This document shows positions 1 to 26,366 of a DNA stretch of 31,480 nucleotides, in pieces. Under the pieces are notes generated by a model. It did no database searches, was not told where the DNA came from, and saw only the letters and a program-made list of their open reading frames with translations. The translations under genes and the position numbers were made by a program. Source of the DNA: Lachnospiraceae bacterium (lineage in GTDB: Bacteria > Bacillota_A > Clostridia > Lachnospirales > Lachnospiraceae); contig JAFTZF010000012.1 of NCBI GenBank assembly GCA_017464645.1, positions 1 to 31,480 on the forward strand, in the 5' to 3' direction. Every line of letters starts with the position of its first letter. The stretch's first letter is position 1.

Positions 1-2
1 AC

Positions 3-797
3 TTCCAGAAGAACCTGCAGGGGGATGTGATCGCCCTTGTGGATGCCAATGCCCAGGTGGTGGCAAGATATACCTACGATGCCTGGGGCAGCGTGACAGG
101 CGTGAAGACGAAGGATGGCACAGCCATCACCAGTTCCACACATGTGGCAAACATCAACCCATTCCGATATCGGGGCTACTATTTGGATCGTGAGACGGGG
201 CTGTATTATCTGCAGAGCCGGTATTATGATCCGGTGGTTGGTAGGTTTGTGAATGGGGATGAGGCTGGATTTGCTTGTGTTGAAATCAACCATTTGAAAT
301 GCAATTTGTATTGCTATTGTATGAATAATGTTATGAACTATGTTGATTACACTGGATATGATGCATGGGCAATTCTGTTCGATGTTGTTATTCTTATTCT
401 GCCTTTTGTGCTAATGAACTTGACACCAGTTGGGTTGATGTATAAAATTGTTAAATCGCTTTTGGTTGCAGCCTATATAGCACGGATAATTAAAGCAATA
501 GTAGATATAAAAAATGCAAAAGAAGATATAAAAAATGGAAGAAATGATTATAACACATGGTGGACTTTGTACACATCCTGGTTGGCAGTTATTTCTAATT
601 CTATTTTATTAGTTTTAGCAATAATTGGAATTACATTTAAAATGTTTTCAAGTCGTGTTCAAGAAACACTTATTGCAGAGACTCTTCATATAATGAATTT
701 AGTATGGGGCACAGCATTTTTTGGATCACTAGTTCTAAATGATATTGTTGTATTACTTACTACCAATAAAAAACCCAAAAGGAGAGAGGTGGGATAG
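3..797 (+). CDS. RHS/YD-repeat polymorphic toxin, C-terminal part (5' end outside window)
   Basis: The reading frame is open from the window edge, so this is the 3' end of a larger gene; GTG at 27 is not a credible start because the coding sense continues upstream. The first ~75 residues are the conserved RHS-associated core, with YTYDAWG, NPFRYRGYYLD, ETGLYYLQSRYYDP and GRFVNGDE. In this family the core closes a shell around a variable C-terminal toxin. After YVDYTG (near residue 110) the composition changes: the DNA becomes AT-rich and the protein strongly hydrophobic, with about three or four possible membrane segments (roughly residues 114-150, 183-208 and 222-247). No nuclease, deaminase or ADP-ribosyltransferase motif is visible. 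A membrane-acting or pore-forming tip is inferred from hydrophobicity only. The next gene begins 2 nt after the stop and is the likely immunity gene. RHS identity is secure; toxin activity is not shown. Confidence 0.88.
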   Translation, partial: FQKNLQGDVIALVDANAQVVARYTYDAWGSVTGVKTKDGTAITSSTHVANINPFRYRGYYLDRETGLYYLQSRYYDPVVGRFVNGDEAGFACVEINHLKCNLYCYCMNNVMNYVDYTGYDAWAILFDVVILILPFVLMNLTPVGLMYKIVKSLLVAAYIARIIKAIVDIKNAKEDIKNGRNDYNTWWTLYTSWLAVISNSILLVLAIIGITFKMFSSRVQETLIAETLHIMNLVWGTAFFGSLVLNDIVVLLTTNKKPKRREVG

Positions 798-798
798 T

Positions 799-1317
799 TT
801 GTTTTTTTGGCCGGAAGAAGTGTATGATGCTTGGTATGAATCTATAGCAAGAGATGTTGGAAGAGGATTAGGAGGCCTTGTAGCAATTATTGTGGCAATT
901 TTTCTTGTGAGAGTTATAATTCAAAAGCAAGATGATAGAAAGTTGATTTTAGGATTAAACATCTTTTGGGCAATTATCGGATCTTATGATCTTGTGCTAT
1001 ATGTTAGGGCCCCACTTAGCGTTGTATTTTTCGGAGTTGCGACTGTTTTTGGATGTTATATTTTCTGTAGTAAAGAAACACAGAAAGCTTGGGATGATAA
1101 GGAGCGAGAAGGTGTTATATCTTCTCATAAATCTGTTTTCGAAAAACAGAGAGCGGATTTTCAAGCCCTCTCTCCAGAAGAACAACAGGAGTGGTATGAA
1201 AATTATTTAAAAGGGGCTCCGCATAGATTGACTATAAAAGATGTTATACTAATGAATTTATTAGCTTTTTTCTTGGCAAATTCTGTTAAGTTGGGATATT
1301 GGTTCTTGGTTAGTTGA
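799..1317 (+). CDS. Small membrane protein, candidate immunity protein for the RHS tip
   Basis: This 172-aa protein belongs to no family I recognise. I chose TTG at 799: GGAGAGAGG at 781-789 lies about 9 nt upstream, inside the end of the RHS gene, and the RHS stop is at 795-797. An in-frame ATG at 739 exists but has no Shine-Dalgarno and would overlap the RHS coding sequence by 59 nt. Hydrophobic segments lie near residues 22-40, 50-66, 71-85 and 152-170, with a charged cytoplasm-like stretch rich in Glu, Lys and Gln between them (about 88-145). The DNA is as AT-rich as the RHS tip, unlike the GC-rich genes further right. A small gene directly after an RHS C-terminus is the usual place for cognate immunity, and a membrane immunity protein would suit a membrane toxin. 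That role is inferred from position and topology. Confidence 0.65.
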   Translation: MFFWPEEVYDAWYESIARDVGRGLGGLVAIIVAIFLVRVIIQKQDDRKLILGLNIFWAIIGSYDLVLYVRAPLSVVFFGVATVFGCYIFCSKETQKAWDDKEREGVISSHKSVFEKQRADFQALSPEEQQEWYENYLKGAPHRLTIKDVILMNLLAFFLANSVKLGYWFLVS

Positions 1318-1398
1318 AAGATAGACTGGTATCGAACTATATGAGCAGTAAATGAGTATATGCGCTAAATAGAATACTTTAATGCAAATAAAATGAGA

Positions 1399-1421
1399 GC
1401 CCCAAGTCATCGACTTGGGGC
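1399..1421 (-). terminator. Likely terminator of argG, possibly bidirectional
   Basis: A perfect 10-bp inverted repeat, GCCCCAAGTC / GACTTGGGGC, encloses a 3-nt loop. Read on the minus strand it lies about 40 nt past the argG stop and is followed by a T-rich stretch (TCTCATTTTATTT). On the plus strand the flank is less T-rich, so termination of the RHS/immunity transcript from the other side is only possible. Confidence 0.65.
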
Positions 1422-1459
1422 GCCTACATTTATTTATCGCAACAATATTTTCTCAACCC

Positions 1460-2686
1460 TTATTTCTGGCTGTTCTTAACCTCAGCCATCTTCATGGCGC
1501 GAACCTTCAGGGGCAGACCGAACAGGGTGATGAAGCCGCTGGCGTCGTTGTGGTCGTACAGGTCGCCGGTGGTGAAGGAAGCCAGGGACTCATTGTACAG
1601 GCTGTAGGGAGAGGTGGTGCCGGCCTTGATGATGTTGCCCTTGTAGAGCTTGAATTTTACTTCGCCGGTCACATATTCCTGGGTGCTGGTCACGAAAGCC
1701 TGGATCGCTTCCCGCAGGGGAGTGAACCATTTTCCTTCGTATACTACCTGAGCCAGCTTGTTGCCCATGTCCTTCTTGGTCTCCATGGTGGCGCGGTCTA
1801 ATACCAGCTCTTCCAGCTGCTCATGGGCTGCCATCAGGATGGTTCCGCCGGGAGTCTCGTATACGCCACGGGACTTCATACCAACCACACGGTTCTCTAC
1901 GATATCTACGATACCGATACCGTGCTTTCCGCCCAGAGCGTTCAGCTCTCTGATGATATCGGAAACCTTCATGGATTTGCCGTTTACGGAGGTGGGAACA
2001 CCCTTTTCAAAGGTCATGGTTACATATTCGCCTTCATCCGGTGCATTTTCGGGAGAAACGCCCAGCACCAGCATGTTGTCAAAGTGGGGTTCGTTTGCCG
2101 GGTCTTCCAGCTCCAGACCCTCGTGGCTTAAGTGCCACAGGTTGCGGTCACGGCTGTAGCTGTGGCTGTGGTCGAAGGGCAGGTCGATGCCGTGCTTTTT
2201 GCAGTAGTCGATCTCGTCTTCCCGGGACTGCATGGTCCATACATCCGTCATTCTCCAGGGAGCGATGATCTTCAGGTCCGGAGCAAGAGCGCGGATGCCC
2301 AGCTCGAAACGGATCTGGTCATTTCCTTTGCCGGTAGCACCGTGGCAGATGGCAGAAGCACCTTCTTTGCGGGCGATCTCCACCAGCTTCTTTGCGATGG
2401 CAGGACGAGCCATGGAGGTTCCCAGCAGATATTTGTGCTCGTAAACAGCGCCTGCCTGCACACAGGGCATAATGTACTCGTCGCAGAATTCATCTACGAT
2501 ATCTTCAATATATAATTTGGATGCGCCGGAGAGCTTTGCACGCTCATCCAGTCCCTCCAGCTCGTTTCCCTGTCCGCAGTCTACGCAGCAGCAGATAACG
2601 TCGTAATCAAAATTTTCCTTTAACCAGGGAATGATGGCAGTGGTATCCAGACCACCGGAATAGGCCAAAACAACTTTTTCTTTCAT
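1460..2686 (-). CDS. argG: Argininosuccinate synthase
   Basis: ArgG joins citrulline and aspartate using ATP to form argininosuccinate, the penultimate step of arginine synthesis, in the cytoplasm. The 408-aa length fits the family (about 400). The N-terminal ATP pyrophosphatase loop AYSGGLDTT (residues 8-16) is intact, as are GATGKGNDQ for the substrate site and the later [15 protein letters not shown] block. The ATG at 2686 is preceded by AGGAGG (plus-strand CCTCCT at 2697-2702), about 10 nt away. The gene diverges from argC-GNAT-argJ-argB-argD across a shared regulatory region, and its promoter overlaps an ARG-box-like site, so ArgR repression by arginine is expected. argH, argF and carAB are not in the window, so the pathway must be completed elsewhere. 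The gene looks intact. Confidence 0.97.
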
Positions 2687-2740
2687 TTCTATAATCCTCC
2701 TGAATCCTTAACGATTTTCATCGGTCATTTCATAGTACCT

Positions 2741-2769
2741 AATATACAACAAATGTAATAAATATGCAA
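2741..2769 (-). promoter_or_regulatory. argG promoter
   Basis: On the minus strand, TTGCAT (plus 2764-2769) and TATATT (plus 2741-2746) are separated by exactly 17 bp. Transcription would begin near 2734, giving a leader of about 48 nt before the argG ATG at 2686. The -35 lies inside the ARG-box-like operator at 2753-2770. Confidence 0.65.
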
Positions 2770-2770
2770 G
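2753..2770. promoter_or_regulatory. ARG-box-like ArgR operator over the argG -35
   Basis: The 18-bp element ATGTAATAAATATGCAAG resembles the Gram-positive ARG box (ArgR/AhrC site, approximately CATGAATAAAAATGCAAG). A weaker second half follows directly (TGAAAATTTATACAT, 2771-2785), so a tandem site is possible. A repressor bound here would cover the argG -35. The match is by eye. Confidence 0.55.
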
Positions 2771-2841
2771 TGAAAATTTATACATAGATTTCAAAAAATG
2801 GGGCCGGTCTTTATGCAAAGTGCCAGTATGAAAGAAAAGTA

Positions 2842-2870
2842 TTGAAAAATAGGGAAAACAGAGGTACAAT
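2842..2870 (+). promoter_or_regulatory. Candidate distal promoter P1 of the argC operon
   Basis: TTGAAA (2842-2847) and TACAAT (2865-2870) are spaced by 17 bp. The predicted start near 2877 would leave a leader of about 230 nt to the argC ATG, and that leader would contain the tandem ARG boxes at 2937-2974. Confidence 0.6.
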
Positions 2871-2936
2871 AGGGATCAAACAGAGCCATTGAAAGAAGTG
2901 CGAAAGATGATTTCAGCGGATTTTCAAGGAAAAAAA

Positions 2937-2974
2937 TATGCAAAATATTCATTAAAAATGCATAAAAATAAATT
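2937..2974. promoter_or_regulatory. Tandem ARG-box-like operators upstream of argC
   Basis: Two 18-bp AT-rich imperfect palindromes, TATGCAAAATATTCATTA (2937-2954) and AATGCATAAAAATAAATT (2957-2974), are separated by 2 bp. Both carry ATGCA/TTCAT-type arms of the ArgR/AhrC box. Paired boxes 2-3 bp apart are the usual ArgR hexamer target. They lie between two candidate promoters, downstream of P1 and about 60 bp upstream of P2. Confidence 0.6.
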
Positions 2975-3032
2975 TTGTGCGAAAAAGGAAAGGCAGAAGG
3001 GCGGGAAACATCCTTTTATTAGGTAGAATCTC

Positions 3033-3061
3033 TTGCATCTGCAGTTCAAAAGTGGTACGAT
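3033..3061 (+). promoter_or_regulatory. Candidate proximal promoter P2 of the argC operon
   Basis: TTGCAT (3033-3038) and TACGAT (3056-3061) are spaced by 17 bp. The start would lie near 3068, about 42 nt before the argC ATG at 3110. The -10 is weaker than that of P1, so which promoter is used cannot be decided from sequence. Confidence 0.45.
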
Positions 3062-3109
3062 ACGGTATTGGGTGAAAGTTTACCCATACAGGCAAGAAGG
3101 AGAATTGTG

Positions 3110-4150
3110 ATGGTTAAAGTAGGAATTATCGGATCTACAGGATATGCCGGCGGTGAGCTGGTGCGTCTGCTTATGGGACATCCCCAGGCAGAGATTAAAT
3201 GGTATGGTTCCAGAAGTTACATAGATAAAAAGTACGCAGATGTATATCAGAACATGTTCCAGATCGTGGAGGATGTGTGCAAGGATGATAATATGGAAGC
3301 TCTGGCACAGGAAGTGGATGTGATCTTCACGGCCACACCCCAGGGCCTGTGCGCTTCCCTGGTAAAGGAAGAGATTTTGTCCAAGGTAAAGATCATTGAC
3401 TTGAGCGCAGACTTCCGGATCAAGGATGTGGATGTTTACGAGAAGTGGTACGGGATTACCCATCCCTGTCCCCAGTACATTCCCGAGGCGGTGTACGGTC
3501 TTTGTGAGATCAACAGGGAAGCAGTGAAGGGCGCCCGCATTCTGGCAAATCCGGGATGCTATCCCACCTGCAGTACCCTGTCCATTTACCCGCTGGTAAA
3601 GGAGGGTATCATTGATCCGGCTACCATTATTATCGATGCCAAGTCCGGTACTTCCGGTGCAGGCCGCGGTGCAAAGGTAGATAATCTGTACTGTGAAGTC
3701 AATGAAAATATTAAGGCCTACGGCGTGGCAGGCCATCGCCACACTCCTGAGATCGAGGAGCAGCTGACTTACGCAGCAGGGGAGCCGGTGCTGCTTAACT
3801 TTACCCCGCACCTGGTGCCCATGAACCGTGGTATTCTGATCACTGCCTATGCTTCTTTAAAGAAGGATGTGACCTACGAGGAAGTAAAGGCCATTTATGA
3901 CAAATATTACGCAGACGAGCAGTTTGTCCGCGTGCTGAACAAGGATGTATGCCCCCAGACCAAATGGGTGGAGGGCAGCAACTATGTGGATGTGAACTTC
4001 AAGATCGATCCCAGGACCCGCCGCGTTATCATGATGGGTGCCATGGACAATCTGGTGAAGGGCGCAGCCGGTCAGGCTGTCCAGAACATGAACCTGATGT
4101 TTGGACTGCCGGAGAATATGGGACTGAATCTGGTGCCTATGTTCCCCTAG
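3110..4150 (+). CDS. argC: N-acetyl-gamma-glutamyl-phosphate reductase
   Basis: ArgC reduces N-acetylglutamyl phosphate to the semialdehyde with NADPH, the third step of ornithine synthesis. I start it at ATG 3110, giving 346 aa and the family-typical N-terminus MVKVGIIGSTGYAGGE. GAAGGAGA at 3096-3103 is correctly spaced. The frame is open further upstream to TTG 3068, but those residues are not family-like. The N-terminal Rossmann motif GSTGYAGG binds NADP. The catalytic cysteine is Cys150 in NPGCYPT, followed by the KSGTSGAGR and GHRHTPEIE substrate-site motifs. It is the first gene of a run that continues with a GNAT acetyltransferase, argJ, argB and argD. ArgR control through the upstream operators is inferred. 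The gene is complete. Confidence 0.96.
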   Translation: MVKVGIIGSTGYAGGELVRLLMGHPQAEIKWYGSRSYIDKKYADVYQNMFQIVEDVCKDDNMEALAQEVDVIFTATPQGLCASLVKEEILSKVKIIDLSADFRIKDVDVYEKWYGITHPCPQYIPEAVYGLCEINREAVKGARILANPGCYPTCSTLSIYPLVKEGIIDPATIIIDAKSGTSGAGRGAKVDNLYCEVNENIKAYGVAGHRHTPEIEEQLTYAAGEPVLLNFTPHLVPMNRGILITAYASLKKDVTYEEVKAIYDKYYADEQFVRVLNKDVCPQTKWVEGSNYVDVNFKIDPRTRRVIMMGAMDNLVKGAAGQAVQNMNLMFGLPENMGLNLVPMFP

Positions 4151-23317: not shown

Positions 23318-23600
23318 AATTAAAGAATTAAACCGTTGAGAAAGAGAAGTAAGCCTTTCTACGAAGTTACAGAGAGCCGCAGGCGGTGGGATTGCGGTAC
23401 GGAGTGGCTGGCTGAATGGCCTTTCGAGGGTGGCTTGAAATCTTAGGAGAGTAGACGTCACCGGGATTCGAACCCGTTATCAAGTCGAGATGCATGATAG
23501 TGCATTACAAAGTGGACCGACGTGTCAATTTGAGTGGTACCGCGATAATAACAAGTTTATTACCGTCTCAAGCAAGTGCTTGAGGCGGTTTTTGTTTTTC
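23318..23600 (+). promoter_or_regulatory. T-box riboswitch with tryptophan (UGG) specifier
   Basis: The leader senses uncharged tRNA by codon-anticodon pairing at stem I and by the tRNA 3' end at the antiterminator. Stem I can close through AAGCC (about 23352) and GGCTT (about 23436) and holds ACAGAGAGCC, the usual AGAGAG element. On its 3' side the specifier loop reads GAA-TGG-CC, with the codon UGG at 23417-23419 (Trp). The T-box itself, GAGTGGTACCGCGA, lies at 23532-23545, with the TGGT bulge that pairs with the tRNA acceptor end. A terminator stem at 23562-23589 ends in a T-run. Uncharged tRNA-Trp should favour read-through into the ABC importer. The Trp assignment depends on the specifier alignment by eye and agrees with the downstream genes. 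Confidence 0.88.
23562..23600 (+). terminator. Regulated terminator of the T-box
   Basis: A 12-bp stem, ACCGTCTCAAGC / GCTTGAGGCGGT, with one G-T wobble and an AAGT loop is followed by TTTTGTTTTTC. Its left side competes with the antiterminator formed from the T-box sequence just upstream. Confidence 0.85.
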
Positions 23601-23692: not shown

Positions 23693-24703
23693 ATGAAAAA
23701 GACAACAGTAGCAGCAATCGTATTAGCAGGAGTTATGGCATTGGCAGCAGGATGCGGAGCAAAGGAACAGACAGCAGCAAATAAGGACGGCTATACCATC
23801 GGTATCAGCCAGTTTGCGGAGCACGGCTCCCTGGATAACTGCCGCACCGGATTTTTAAAGGGCCTGGCAGAAGAGGGCATCGTAGAGGGCGAAAACCTGG
23901 AGGTCTCCTTCCAGAATTCCCAGGCAGACACCGGTACAGCCAGCCAGATTGCTGACAATTTTATTTCCCAGAAGGTAGATATGATCTGTGCCATTGCAAC
24001 ACCCAGCGCAGCAGCCGCTTACACAGCAGCTATGAAGACCGATGTGCCTGTGATCTACACTGCAGTATCTGATCCGGTGGCAGCAGGCCTGGCAAAAGAG
24101 GACGGCTCTCCCGTAGGCGAGATTACCGGAACTTCCGATAAGCTGCCGGTAGAAGCACAGCTGCAGATGATCCGTGAGATTCTGCCGGATGCAAAGACCA
24201 TCGGTATCATGTATACCACCAGCGAGACCAACTCTGAAGCAACCCTGAAGGAATACGAGGCTCTGGTTGGAGAATATGGCTTTGAACTGGTAACCGCAGG
24301 TATTTCCAACAGCTCTGAGATCGCTCTGGCAGCTGACAATCTGATCGCACAGGTAGACTGCCTGAACAATCTGACTGACAACACCGTAGTACAGGGCCTG
24401 CCCACTATTCTGGAAAAGGCAAATGCAGCAGGCATCCCCGTATTTGGTTCTGAGCAGGAACAGGTTAAGGTAGGCTGTCTGGCAGCAGTAGGCCTGGATT
24501 ATGAGGCACTGGGTGTACAGACCGGTAAGATGGCAGCAAAGGTGCTGAAGGGCGAAGCAAAGGCATCTGAACTGAACTTTGAACTGATCTCCGAGTTTGG
24601 CCTGTACCTGAACACCCAGGTGGCAGAGAACCTGCAGCTGACTCTGGATGAGGCTTATGTAGGATCCGCACTGGAGGTTTACGACACCATCAGTGCAGAA
24701 TAA
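23693..24703 (+). CDS. trpX: Tryptophan-type ABC importer, substrate-binding lipoprotein
   Basis: The 336-aa protein has a signal peptide ending in the lipobox LAAGC (Cys21), so it is anchored on the outer face of the membrane. The rest is a two-lobe binding fold of the ABC_sub_bind type: YTIGISQFAEHGSLDNCRTGFLKGL, FQNSQADTGTASQIADNFI, DVPVIYTAVSDPVAAGL and IPVFGSEQEQVKVGCLAAVGLDY. This family is known as TrpX when it is under a Trp T-box, as here. AAAGGAG lies 8 nt before the ATG. It is followed 27 nt later by the permease and then the ATPase, making a full importer. Substrate: tryptophan is inferred from the UGG T-box, since the binding site cannot be read by eye. It could also take a Trp precursor or indole compound. 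Confidence 0.9.
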   Translation: MKKTTVAAIVLAGVMALAAGCGAKEQTAANKDGYTIGISQFAEHGSLDNCRTGFLKGLAEEGIVEGENLEVSFQNSQADTGTASQIADNFISQKVDMICAIATPSAAAAYTAAMKTDVPVIYTAVSDPVAAGLAKEDGSPVGEITGTSDKLPVEAQLQMIREILPDAKTIGIMYTTSETNSEATLKEYEALVGEYGFELVTAGISNSSEIALAADNLIAQVDCLNNLTDNTVVQGLPTILEKANAAGIPVFGSEQEQVKVGCLAAVGLDYEALGVQTGKMAAKVLKGEAKASELNFELISEFGLYLNTQVAENLQLTLDEAYVGSALEVYDTISAE

Positions 24704-24730
24704 AAAGTAAAAGAAAAAGAGGTTGAAACC

Positions 24731-25600
24731 ATGGCGATTTTAATCGGTATTCTGGAGCAGGGTTTAAGCTACGGCATCATGGCTCTGGGCGCGTACATTA
24801 CTTACAAAATATTGGATTTTCCGGATCTGACGGTAGACGGAAGCTTTCCGCTGGGAGCGGCCGTTACAGCGGTGCTTTTGGGGGCGGGAGTGAATCCTTT
24901 CCTGACACTGCTGATTGCTTTTGCCGCAGGCGTTCTGGCGGGCATCTGCACCGGTCTTATCCATGTGAAACTGAAGGTGCGTGACCTGCTTTCCGGTATT
25001 ATCATGTTTACCGCTTTGTATACCATCAACTTAAAGATTCCGGGCAAGGCCTATGTGCCTCTGTTTACAGAAACTACCATTTTTGACGGAGGATTTTTGC
25101 AGGCGCTGGGCAGCTTTGGCTGCGTAGTTATGACACTGCTGGTAGCGCTGGTGGCTAAGATCCTTCTGGATCTGTACCTGAAGACCAAATCCGGCTATCT
25201 GCTGCGGGCCGTAGGGGACAATGATGTGATTGTTACCGCACTTGCAAAGGATCAGGGTCTGGTAAAAATCGTGGGTCTGGCCATTGCCAATGGTCTGGTG
25301 GCTCTGGGGGGCAGCGTTTACTGCCAGCAGCAGCGCTATTATGACATTTCCATGGGAACCGGTACGGTGGTCATCGGTCTTGCCAGTGTCATCATCGGAA
25401 CCAACCTCTTTAAAAATATGACCTTCATGAAAGCGACCTCAGCCGTACTCATCGGCTCCATCCTTTACAAGGCTTGCGTGGCAGGGGCCATGGCCCTGGG
25501 ACTGGACCCGCAGAATATGAAGCTGGTAACCGCAGTCCTGTTCCTGGTGATTCTGGTCATCAGCATGGACAGAAAGAAGAAGGTGAAGGGAAATGCTTGA
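24731..25600 (+). CDS. trpY: ABC importer permease (TrpY type)
   Basis: This 289-aa integral membrane protein has about eight or nine hydrophobic segments and begins GILEQGLSYGIMALGAYITYKILDFPDLTVDGSFPLGAA, close to the branched-chain/ribose-type (BPD_transp_2) permease group. Conserved cytoplasmic loops with charged residues (LKTKSGYLLRAVGDN and later KNMTFMKATSA) would meet the ATPase. The start ATG 24731 has AGAGG 9 nt upstream. It lies between the binding protein and the ATPase genes and overlaps the latter by 8 nt, so translation is probably coupled. With TrpX and TrpZ it forms the T-box-controlled importer. Confidence 0.9.
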   Translation: MAILIGILEQGLSYGIMALGAYITYKILDFPDLTVDGSFPLGAAVTAVLLGAGVNPFLTLLIAFAAGVLAGICTGLIHVKLKVRDLLSGIIMFTALYTINLKIPGKAYVPLFTETTIFDGGFLQALGSFGCVVMTLLVALVAKILLDLYLKTKSGYLLRAVGDNDVIVTALAKDQGLVKIVGLAIANGLVALGGSVYCQQQRYYDISMGTGTVVIGLASVIIGTNLFKNMTFMKATSAVLIGSILYKACVAGAMALGLDPQNMKLVTAVLFLVILVISMDRKKKVKGNA

Positions 25601-26366
25601 ATTAAGGGAAATCAGTAAGTATTACAATCCGGGTACAGTCAATGAAATGTGCCTGTTCGACCATTTTAACCTGCAGATTGACCAGGGCGAGTTTGTTTCC
25701 GTGGTAGGCAGCAACGGCTCCGGCAAGACCTCCATGCTGAACATCATCTGTGGCAGCATTGATGTGGAGGGCGGCCAGGTTCTCGTAGGCCAGGAAAACA
25801 TCACCGGCAAGAAGGAGTTTGAGCGGAACCGCCGCATTGGCCGGGTCTATCAGAATCCCGCCATGGGCACCTGTCCCAATATGACCATTCTGGAGAATAT
25901 GTCTTTGGCAGACAACAAGGGCAAGCGCTTCGGCCTGGCCCCCGGTGTCAACAAGGCCAGAACCCAGTATTATCGGGAACTGCTTTCGGGCTTAGGCCTG
26001 GGTCTGGAGGACAAAATGAATATTAAGGTGGGCTCCCTTTCCGGTGGCCAGCGCCAGGCTATGGCACTTCTCATGGCAACCCTGACACCCATCGAATTTT
26101 TGATCCTGGATGAGCACACCGCAGCTTTGGACCCCAAGACCGCAGACATTATCATGGAGCTGACGGATAAAATCGTCCGGGAAAAACAGATCACCACTAT
26201 CATGGTAACCCACAACCTGCGCTACGCCGTAGAATACGGCAACCGCCTGCTGATGATGCATGAAGGCAAGGTCATTCTGGATAAGAAGCAGGAAGAAAAA
26301 CAGGCTGTGAAGATAGATGATATTTTAGGACTCTTCAACGAAATCAGTATAGAGTGCGGAAATTAA
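25593..26366 (+). CDS. trpZ: ABC importer ATPase (TrpZ type)
   Basis: The 257-aa protein is the nucleotide-binding subunit. Walker A is GSNGSGKTS (about 39-47), the Q loop is VYQNPAMG, the ABC signature is LSGGQRQ (about 149-155), Walker B is FLILDEHTA, and the switch His lies in VTHNLRYA. It drives transport by ATP hydrolysis at the inner face of the permease. Its ATG at 25593 lies 8 nt before the permease stop with GGTGAAGGGAAATG as ribosome site. The gene ends about 3 nt before a long hairpin terminator at 26369. All catalytic motifs look intact. Confidence 0.93.
   Translation: MLELREISKYYNPGTVNEMCLFDHFNLQIDQGEFVSVVGSNGSGKTSMLNIICGSIDVEGGQVLVGQENITGKKEFERNRRIGRVYQNPAMGTCPNMTILENMSLADNKGKRFGLAPGVNKARTQYYRELLSGLGLGLEDKMNIKVGSLSGGQRQAMALLMATLTPIEFLILDEHTAALDPKTADIIMELTDKIVREKQITTIMVTHNLRYAVEYGNRLLMMHEGKVILDKKQEEKQAVKIDDILGLFNEISIECGN

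Follow-up and report, generated by a model that had tools for sequence, protein, structure and literature searches.

The 3' end of an RHS gene in a Lachnospiraceae-like bacterium raises the question of whether a C-terminal tip that is hydrophobic along almost its whole length could be a toxin acting on membranes, and whether the membrane protein encoded immediately behind it could be the cognate immunity protein. The gene lies at the start of a stretch of 31,480 nt, which we call the window. It had been proposed from the letters of this DNA that tip and neighbour form a membrane-disrupting toxin-immunity pair exchanged as a cassette. The observations on which that proposal was built have held up, whereas membrane disruption by the tip and protection by its neighbour are what we infer from them, and are plausible. 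The locus is an orphan all-membrane Rhs tip in a Lachnospiraceae-like bacterium, belonging to a kind of system that is already known. Among the literature titles covered, which mostly leave aside subscription journals, none announced such a tip in Lachnospiraceae.

Results

The RHS core and its junction with the tip

The contig begins inside the RHS gene, whose N-terminus and delivery part lie outside it, leaving a 5'-open ORF of 264 residues (nt 3–797, + strand). Residues 1–118 (nt 3–356, + strand) are the 3' end of the RHS core: TIGR03696 matched residues 25–118 (E 8e-20; 71 bits, cut-off 32.5), a PF05593 repeat scored 21 bits, just below its cut-off of 22, and phmmer matched RHS structures, 7q97, 8h8b and 8cp6 among them, over the core only, the Tse5 chain 8cp6_B being matched by core residues 50–91 (E 9e-6). 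The core closes with a D-x-x-G stretch (window 258–356) reading DEAG ... DYTG, in which the aspartates are present and the prolines absent. The aspartyl self-cleavage motif described for Tse5, DPXGL...DPXGL, contains prolines (PMC9637101), and because DEAG and DYTG are without them, self-cleavage of this RHS protein is uncertain. Elsewhere the core was found to end in DYDG (locus L153) or DPSG (locus L177). A regular expression written for the second D-x-x-G motif fitted 13 of 121 proteins, five of them with a tyrosine after the aspartate, and was too narrow for use.

A tip that is hydrophobic almost to its end

The tip comprises residues 119–264 of the ORF, i.e. 146 residues encoded by nt 357–794 and followed by a TAG stop at 795–797 (feature 357–797, + strand), and is a putative pore-forming or ionophore toxin with a basic C-terminal tail. 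Its GRAVY is +0.68, as against −0.25 for the core, and its four hydrophobic segments (tip residues 5–23, 31–49, 76–94 and 115–133, the second carrying four basic residues) agree with the original prediction of several possible membrane helices in the last 145 residues or so. TM-like windows take up 52% of the tip and only 13 residues follow the last of them; since the tip is hydrophobic almost to its end, there is little room for a separate enzyme. The AlphaFold model, built from the single sequence and of middling confidence (mean pLDDT 72), consists of four helices (model residues 4–25, 30–64, 70–99 and 104–141), and no fold stood out when it was compared with those in the PDB. Open frames of 146 and of 172 codons, the lengths of the tip and of the gene behind it, were each found in 0 of 20,000 simulated sequences of the same composition, and neither frame is open by chance.

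The downstream gene

The putative immunity gene (nt 799–1317, + strand) starts at a TTG at 799, 2 nt past the TAG of the tip, and encodes a protein of 172 residues. Four hydrophobic segments are present in this protein, a charged loop of about 50 residues lying between the third and the fourth. That it would be a membrane protein lying 2 nt behind the stop, and would share the AT-rich composition of the tip, was borne out, the GC content of the two being 0.36 and 0.32, respectively. The same frame is open back to an alternative start, ATG 739, 60 nt into the tip gene, and the public database source predicted the 192-residue form that begins there. We favour the short form because a Shine-Dalgarno-like sequence, AGGAGAGAGGTGG, is present at 780–792 (+ strand) within the last codons of the tip. 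The single-sequence AlphaFold model of the downstream protein has six helices, and its confidence is low (mean pLDDT 59).

Exchange of tip and downstream gene as a cassette

A query of residues 1–122 of the ORF matched 4788 proteins, and the comparisons that follow use the best 120 of these. Apart from the window itself, the closest to the window core among those 120 was P0003, a Lachnospiraceae fragment that shares 84 of the first 86 core residues with the window and then continues into an unrelated tip. Near this point of divergence, around nt 261, the GC content drops from roughly 0.5 to roughly 0.3; over the whole features it is 0.48 for the core, as against the values given above for the tip and the downstream gene, and 0.51–0.54 for five other genes of the window. 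Because of the P0003 divergence and the drop in GC, the last 32 or so residues of the core, the tip and the next gene look as though they were imported together, and the presumed cassette, with the D-x-x-G stretch included, spans nt 261–1317 (+ strand), its 3' limit being placed from the end of the downstream gene and the rise in GC beyond it. P0003 thus gives direct support to the view that tip and neighbour were exchanged as a cassette, but a start of the foreign segment at nt 330, as first drawn, has to be moved upstream to near nt 261, within those last core residues. Nearly all of the D-x-x-G stretch falls beyond the exchange point, on the imported side. The tip is shared by none of the 119 other core relatives among the best 120 (best blastp E 0.3). 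Recombination of polymorphic toxins with toxin-coding cassettes is described as established (PMC3482391).

Searches for relatives of the pair

Neither the tip nor the downstream protein matched anything above chance in Pfam, NCBIfam, PHROGs, PADLOC or the sequences of the PDB, where the tip had no match at E values up to 10, and this is in keeping with the earlier statement that the tip carries no known enzymatic motif; specifically, no soluble enzyme family was matched in the profile search of the tip. Three sub-threshold leads were set aside: NF041559 (BTH_I2691/Tke5), the best NCBIfam lead for the tip, which covers residues 41–109 of the translation of window 348–794 and was treated as chance (E 0.063, 11.8 bits against a cut-off of 150), YIF1 for the entire 264-residue ORF (E 0.1) and phrog_27111 for the downstream protein (E 0.064). 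Searching plasmids by tblastn with both proteins, genome contigs by a pattern scan with the tip, and viral contigs by a pattern scan with the tip, the downstream protein and the L153 tip likewise gave nothing above chance.

A search of 5.8 billion clustered proteins takes in those of 0.55–1.75 times the length of the query, which for the tip was the 264-residue ORF; among fragments of about 145–462 residues the tip found only itself, a result that leaves aside full-length RHS proteins, which these length limits made non-candidates. For the downstream protein, for which the limit was no handicap, the same search returned one relative, P0002, with two differences in 192 residues from the long form, which stands for four sequences from two contigs, neither longer than 1424 bases. 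The first 20 residues of P0002 match those of the window without a difference and correspond to the last part of the tip gene in its other reading frame; as this overlap peptide is the same, the end of the tip should adjoin the P0002 gene too. P0002 is one further strain-level occurrence and says nothing on travel between backgrounds. A wide occurrence of the downstream gene away from the tip, which would have counted against the pairing, was not what we found: its one occurrence elsewhere in the protein search carries the overlap peptide, which marks the end of the tip gene next to it.

When 397 Lachnospiraceae genomes were searched in six frames, a comparison that sets no limit on length, the tip had marginal matches in 64 of them (E of at most 0.1, best 2e-4 with internal stops) and the downstream protein in 35 (best 0.002, again with internal stops), and no RHS core (E of at most 0.1) was present in the 2.2–3.4 kb around the 15 tip loci and 15 downstream-protein loci kept. 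The four genomes of the nearest genus covered gave no tip match, an empty answer that shows little.

Tips of other Lachnospiraceae RHS proteins

The same 397 genomes contained 110 RHS core matches, distributed over 58 of them, of which 109 were taken and one at a contig edge (G242:C40) was omitted. Together with seven further loci these gave 116 regions and 111 distinct tips; two regions were without a usable core end, and eight core matches had no stop before the end of the region. At least 80 residues were present in 95 of the 111 tips, and 71 also had a closed next ORF starting between −60 and +100 nt from the stop, 40 being dropped for failing one or the other criterion. The 'next gene' of this survey is the longest ORF in place, uncurated, and the window pair is outside both the 71 and the 95. 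With a GRAVY of 0.68 the window tip exceeds all 95 (maximum 0.56), and its coverage by TM-like windows compares with at most 43% among them. In 45 of the 95 tips the first 65 residues include a hydrophobic window, and 42 of these tips continue for at least 80 residues after their last such window, so that hydrophobicity after the core need not by itself mean a membrane toxin. Tips with a hydrophobic start are common, and this start may serve Lachnospiraceae RHS toxins generally as an entry segment, whereas a tip that is hydrophobic to its end is rare. Fragments P0004 and P0106 have a hydrophobic stretch after the core as well as a Pfam domain, PF14412 and PF01541, respectively, which we take to be AHH and GIY-YIG nucleases. 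Two arrays were also seen in the survey. Contig C1 of genome G237 (loci L154, L155 and L158) has four RHS core matches within 12 kb, with tips that look related, three of them followed by related-looking genes of 390–404 aa with four TM windows. A large tip array is present on contig C33 of G293, where eight core matches lie in about 18 kb (L205–L208, L210–L212 and L219).

One survey locus resembles the window in its layout. In L153 (genome G302), an RHS core 49% identical to that of the window carries a 134-residue tip of GRAVY 0.54, followed 9 nt on by a membrane gene of 166 aa and similar layout; MAFFT alignment with the window gave 24% identity for the tips and 25% for the downstream proteins. 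Against ordinary shuffles the L153 tip reached z 4.0, second among 79 loci, with L188 at z 4.7 (judged a chance match) and fragment P0049 at 4.3, and the L153 next gene did not rank among the top six matches of the downstream protein. When the shuffles kept the hydrophobic pattern, 62 of 2000 reached the score of the L153 tip (p about 0.03) and 1514 of 2000 the score of its next gene, which is random level. A single-sequence hhalign comparison of L153 with the window was not significant, and over the 397 genomes the L153 tip found itself and otherwise, at best, a match of E 3.6e-4 with an internal stop. L153 was accordingly rejected as a proven homologue, the pattern-keeping shuffles leaving similar anatomy with homology unproven. 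A second family of very hydrophobic RHS tips is formed by L177 (G287), P0068 and L273 (G223), the last being an open frame of 144 residues, part of which is 38% identical to the L177 tip.

Hydrophobic tips and hydrophobic next genes

Over the 71 loci, the window excluded, the GRAVY of the tip correlated with that of the next gene (rho 0.48, p 2e-5), and it did so with one locus per tip family (rho 0.48, p 4e-4, n=50) and after correction for GC (partial correlation 0.53). In the 45 loci with a second downstream gene, that gene also leaned positive, though not significantly (rho 0.21, p 0.16), as against 0.49 for the first gene of the same loci. Counted in helices, the next gene had at least two TM windows behind 12 of the 23 tips with at least two windows and behind 6 of the 48 others (p 8e-4); at a threshold of 1.6 the contrast weakened to 7 of 15 and 11 of 56 (p 0.046), and with one locus per family to 4 of 9 and 8 of 41 (p 0.19). 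The rank correlation of TM counts was 0.22 with one locus per family at a threshold of 1.5 (p 0.12) and vanished at 1.6 (rho 0.04). Individual loci point both ways. The two most hydrophobic tips after that of the window, L177 and L153, have next genes with four and three TM windows, respectively; the third most hydrophobic survey tip, L190, has a next gene with a single TM window, and L178, a tip of 132 aa with 9 residues after its last window, a next gene with none. As the statistics were designed after 79 tips had been viewed and were then extended to the remaining loci, all these p-values are exploratory, and on that footing the pairing trend stands for hydrophobicity as a whole but is fragile when helices are counted. 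The expectation that a membrane toxin comes with a membrane immunity protein is thus favoured by the hydrophobicity trend and gains little from helix counts at the stricter threshold.

The rest of the window

Names for the genes beyond the cassette (argG, argC, argJ and others) come from reading the translations, without a domain search. Among the best 80 argC relatives protein identity reached 87%, and the closest flanks of such relatives (L001 and L008) were about 77% identical at the DNA level over aligned pieces of 11–12 kb. In the stretches covered around these 80 relatives no RHS core was matched better than E 1. At gathering thresholds Rfam gave a single match, a T-box leader (RF00230, nt 23327–23573, + strand, 97.4 bits). 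It lies upstream of genes at 23693–26366 that we take, again without a domain search, to encode a substrate-binding protein, a permease and an ATPase, and leader and genes together may be an amino-acid-regulated importer. Promoter-like and terminator-like sites in nt 1–3200 were no commoner than in shuffles (8 against 7.1 and 3 against 2.8, respectively); one terminator-like stem of 10 pairs lies at 1399–1421 on the − strand, immediately beyond the 3' end of the gene that we take to be argG.

Discussion

That the tip and its neighbour are a polymorphic toxin-immunity pair, whatever the mode of action, seems to us very likely, and a pore- or ionophore-type tip with a cognate membrane immunity protein is the reading that we think probable. 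In its anatomy the locus resembles a polymorphic toxin that acts on membranes and has a membrane immunity protein, for which Tse5-Tsi5 and the ionophores of contact-dependent inhibition (CDI) are precedents. The Rhs tip of Tse5, of 149 residues, forms pores and is neutralized by Tsi5, a protein with two predicted TM regions (PMC9637101; PMC10684867). Like that pair, the locus described here has an RHS core, a tip of closely similar length with several (here predicted) membrane helices and no predicted enzyme activity, and a putative membrane immunity protein, which differs from Tsi5 in having four hydrophobic segments. Tse5 is, moreover, a type VI effector of Gram-negative bacteria, whereas the window comes from a Lachnospiraceae-like bacterium and the delivery part of the protein is outside the contig. 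The lack of a PDB match of the tip has to be read with the fact that the Tse5 entry listed, 8cp6_B (1121 residues), is the shell, so that Tse5-CT itself may not have been compared. The CDI ionophores are described as polymorphic C-terminal domains with very hydrophobic, small membrane immunity proteins, in highly variable pairs (PMC11630599), and the CdiA-CT EC93 group with its CdiI proteins resembles our locus in combining a variable membrane toxin with a hydrophobic (here putative) membrane immunity protein. This likeness is one of description: the carrier here is an RHS core rather than CdiA, the CDI ionophore has five helices and an entry domain, and CdiI has two helices in 72–100 residues as against four hydrophobic segments in 172 (PMC11630599).

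Two further comparisons concern the tip and the carrier, respectively. W-TIP, like the tip studied here, is small, very hydrophobic and non-catalytic and is predicted to make a pore across the membrane, but it is described as having two predicted helices with RxxR and W-TIP motifs and as being restricted to proteobacteria (PMC3482391); the TIP tripeptide is absent from the window tip. The WapA-CT/Imm system of Streptococcus suis is, like ours, a Gram-positive RHS/YD protein with an exchangeable tip and an adjacent (here putative) immunity gene; the passages of PMC12704120 that deal with it describe no all-membrane tip, and they present the route of WapA through the cell wall as unsettled. Tke5, to whose family the best NCBIfam lead for the tip belongs, far under its cut-off, is a pore-forming toxin (PMC12909789).

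Several other readings of the locus have to be weighed. The abundance of early hydrophobic windows in the survey, nearly always with a long continuation behind them, and fragments such as P0004 and P0106, in which a presumed nuclease domain accompanies the hydrophobic stretch, would fit a tip that is only a delivery or entry segment whose real toxin has been lost or truncated. We nevertheless regard such a decayed tip as unlikely, since the hydrophobic helices run to within 13 residues of the end, the stop, the Shine-Dalgarno-like site and the next gene are tightly spaced, with an overlap peptide that is the same in P0002, and the longest other open stretch in nt 261–1400 is 83 codons, as against 178 for the tip frame and 192 for the downstream frame. 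The organization of the boundary also bears on the idea that tip and downstream ORF are one membrane protein split by a frameshift that would be an assembly error. The downstream frame is indeed open from 739 and overlaps the tip, but P0002 gives the same overlap peptide in the same frame and a Shine-Dalgarno-like site and a start stand at the boundary, so that we give this idea very little credence.

If the tip instead anchored the RHS protein in the membrane of the producer, as a display stalk, the next gene would encode an accessory partner and not an immunity protein. Two proteins with several hydrophobic segments encoded side by side would suit such an arrangement, as would an RHS N-terminus that is outside the contig. 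It is the tip that has been swapped, however, while an anchor should be conserved like the core, and the downstream protein has a single relative in the search of 5.8 billion proteins; this we consider improbable. We put at the same low level a tip that would block a specific protein of the target membrane, such as a transporter, Sec or a lipid carrier, making no pore, with an immunity protein that would compete for the site. A mode of this kind is conceivable in view of the particular inner-membrane receptors that CDI ionophores are described as using (PMC11630599), and the basic residues of the second tip segment might be read in its favour, but the sequence gives no positive sign of it and the all-membrane Rhs tip whose action is described in PMC9637101, that of Tse5, makes pores.

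On the reading that we prefer, a pore- or ionophore-type tip with a cognate immunity protein, this RHS polymorphic-toxin gene would have received a toxin-immunity cassette at its 3' end by exchange. The 146-residue tip would be an integral membrane toxin, carried inside or on the RHS shell and freed by cleavage after the core; in a neighbouring cell it would then insert into the cytoplasmic membrane and form an ion-leaking pore, with collapse of the membrane potential. The downstream protein, probably made by translational coupling from the ribosome site in the last codons of the tip, would block the cognate tip in the producer's own membrane. How a hydrophobic cargo could be delivered through the cell wall is, to our knowledge, an open problem. 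A broader view, that RHS proteins of gut Clostridia deliver a large, fast-diverging class of pore toxins with multi-helix immunity proteins, of which the window pair, L153 (then a true distant homologue pair) and L177/P0068 would be separate orphans that sequence search cannot join, appears to us possible but rather doubtful.

The point of exchange between two nearly identical cores shows where cassettes of this type swap, and the pair of the tip and the 172-residue protein is small enough for a direct test of toxicity and immunity. Should the tip form pores, the range of all-membrane Rhs toxins would extend to Gram-positive gut bacteria.
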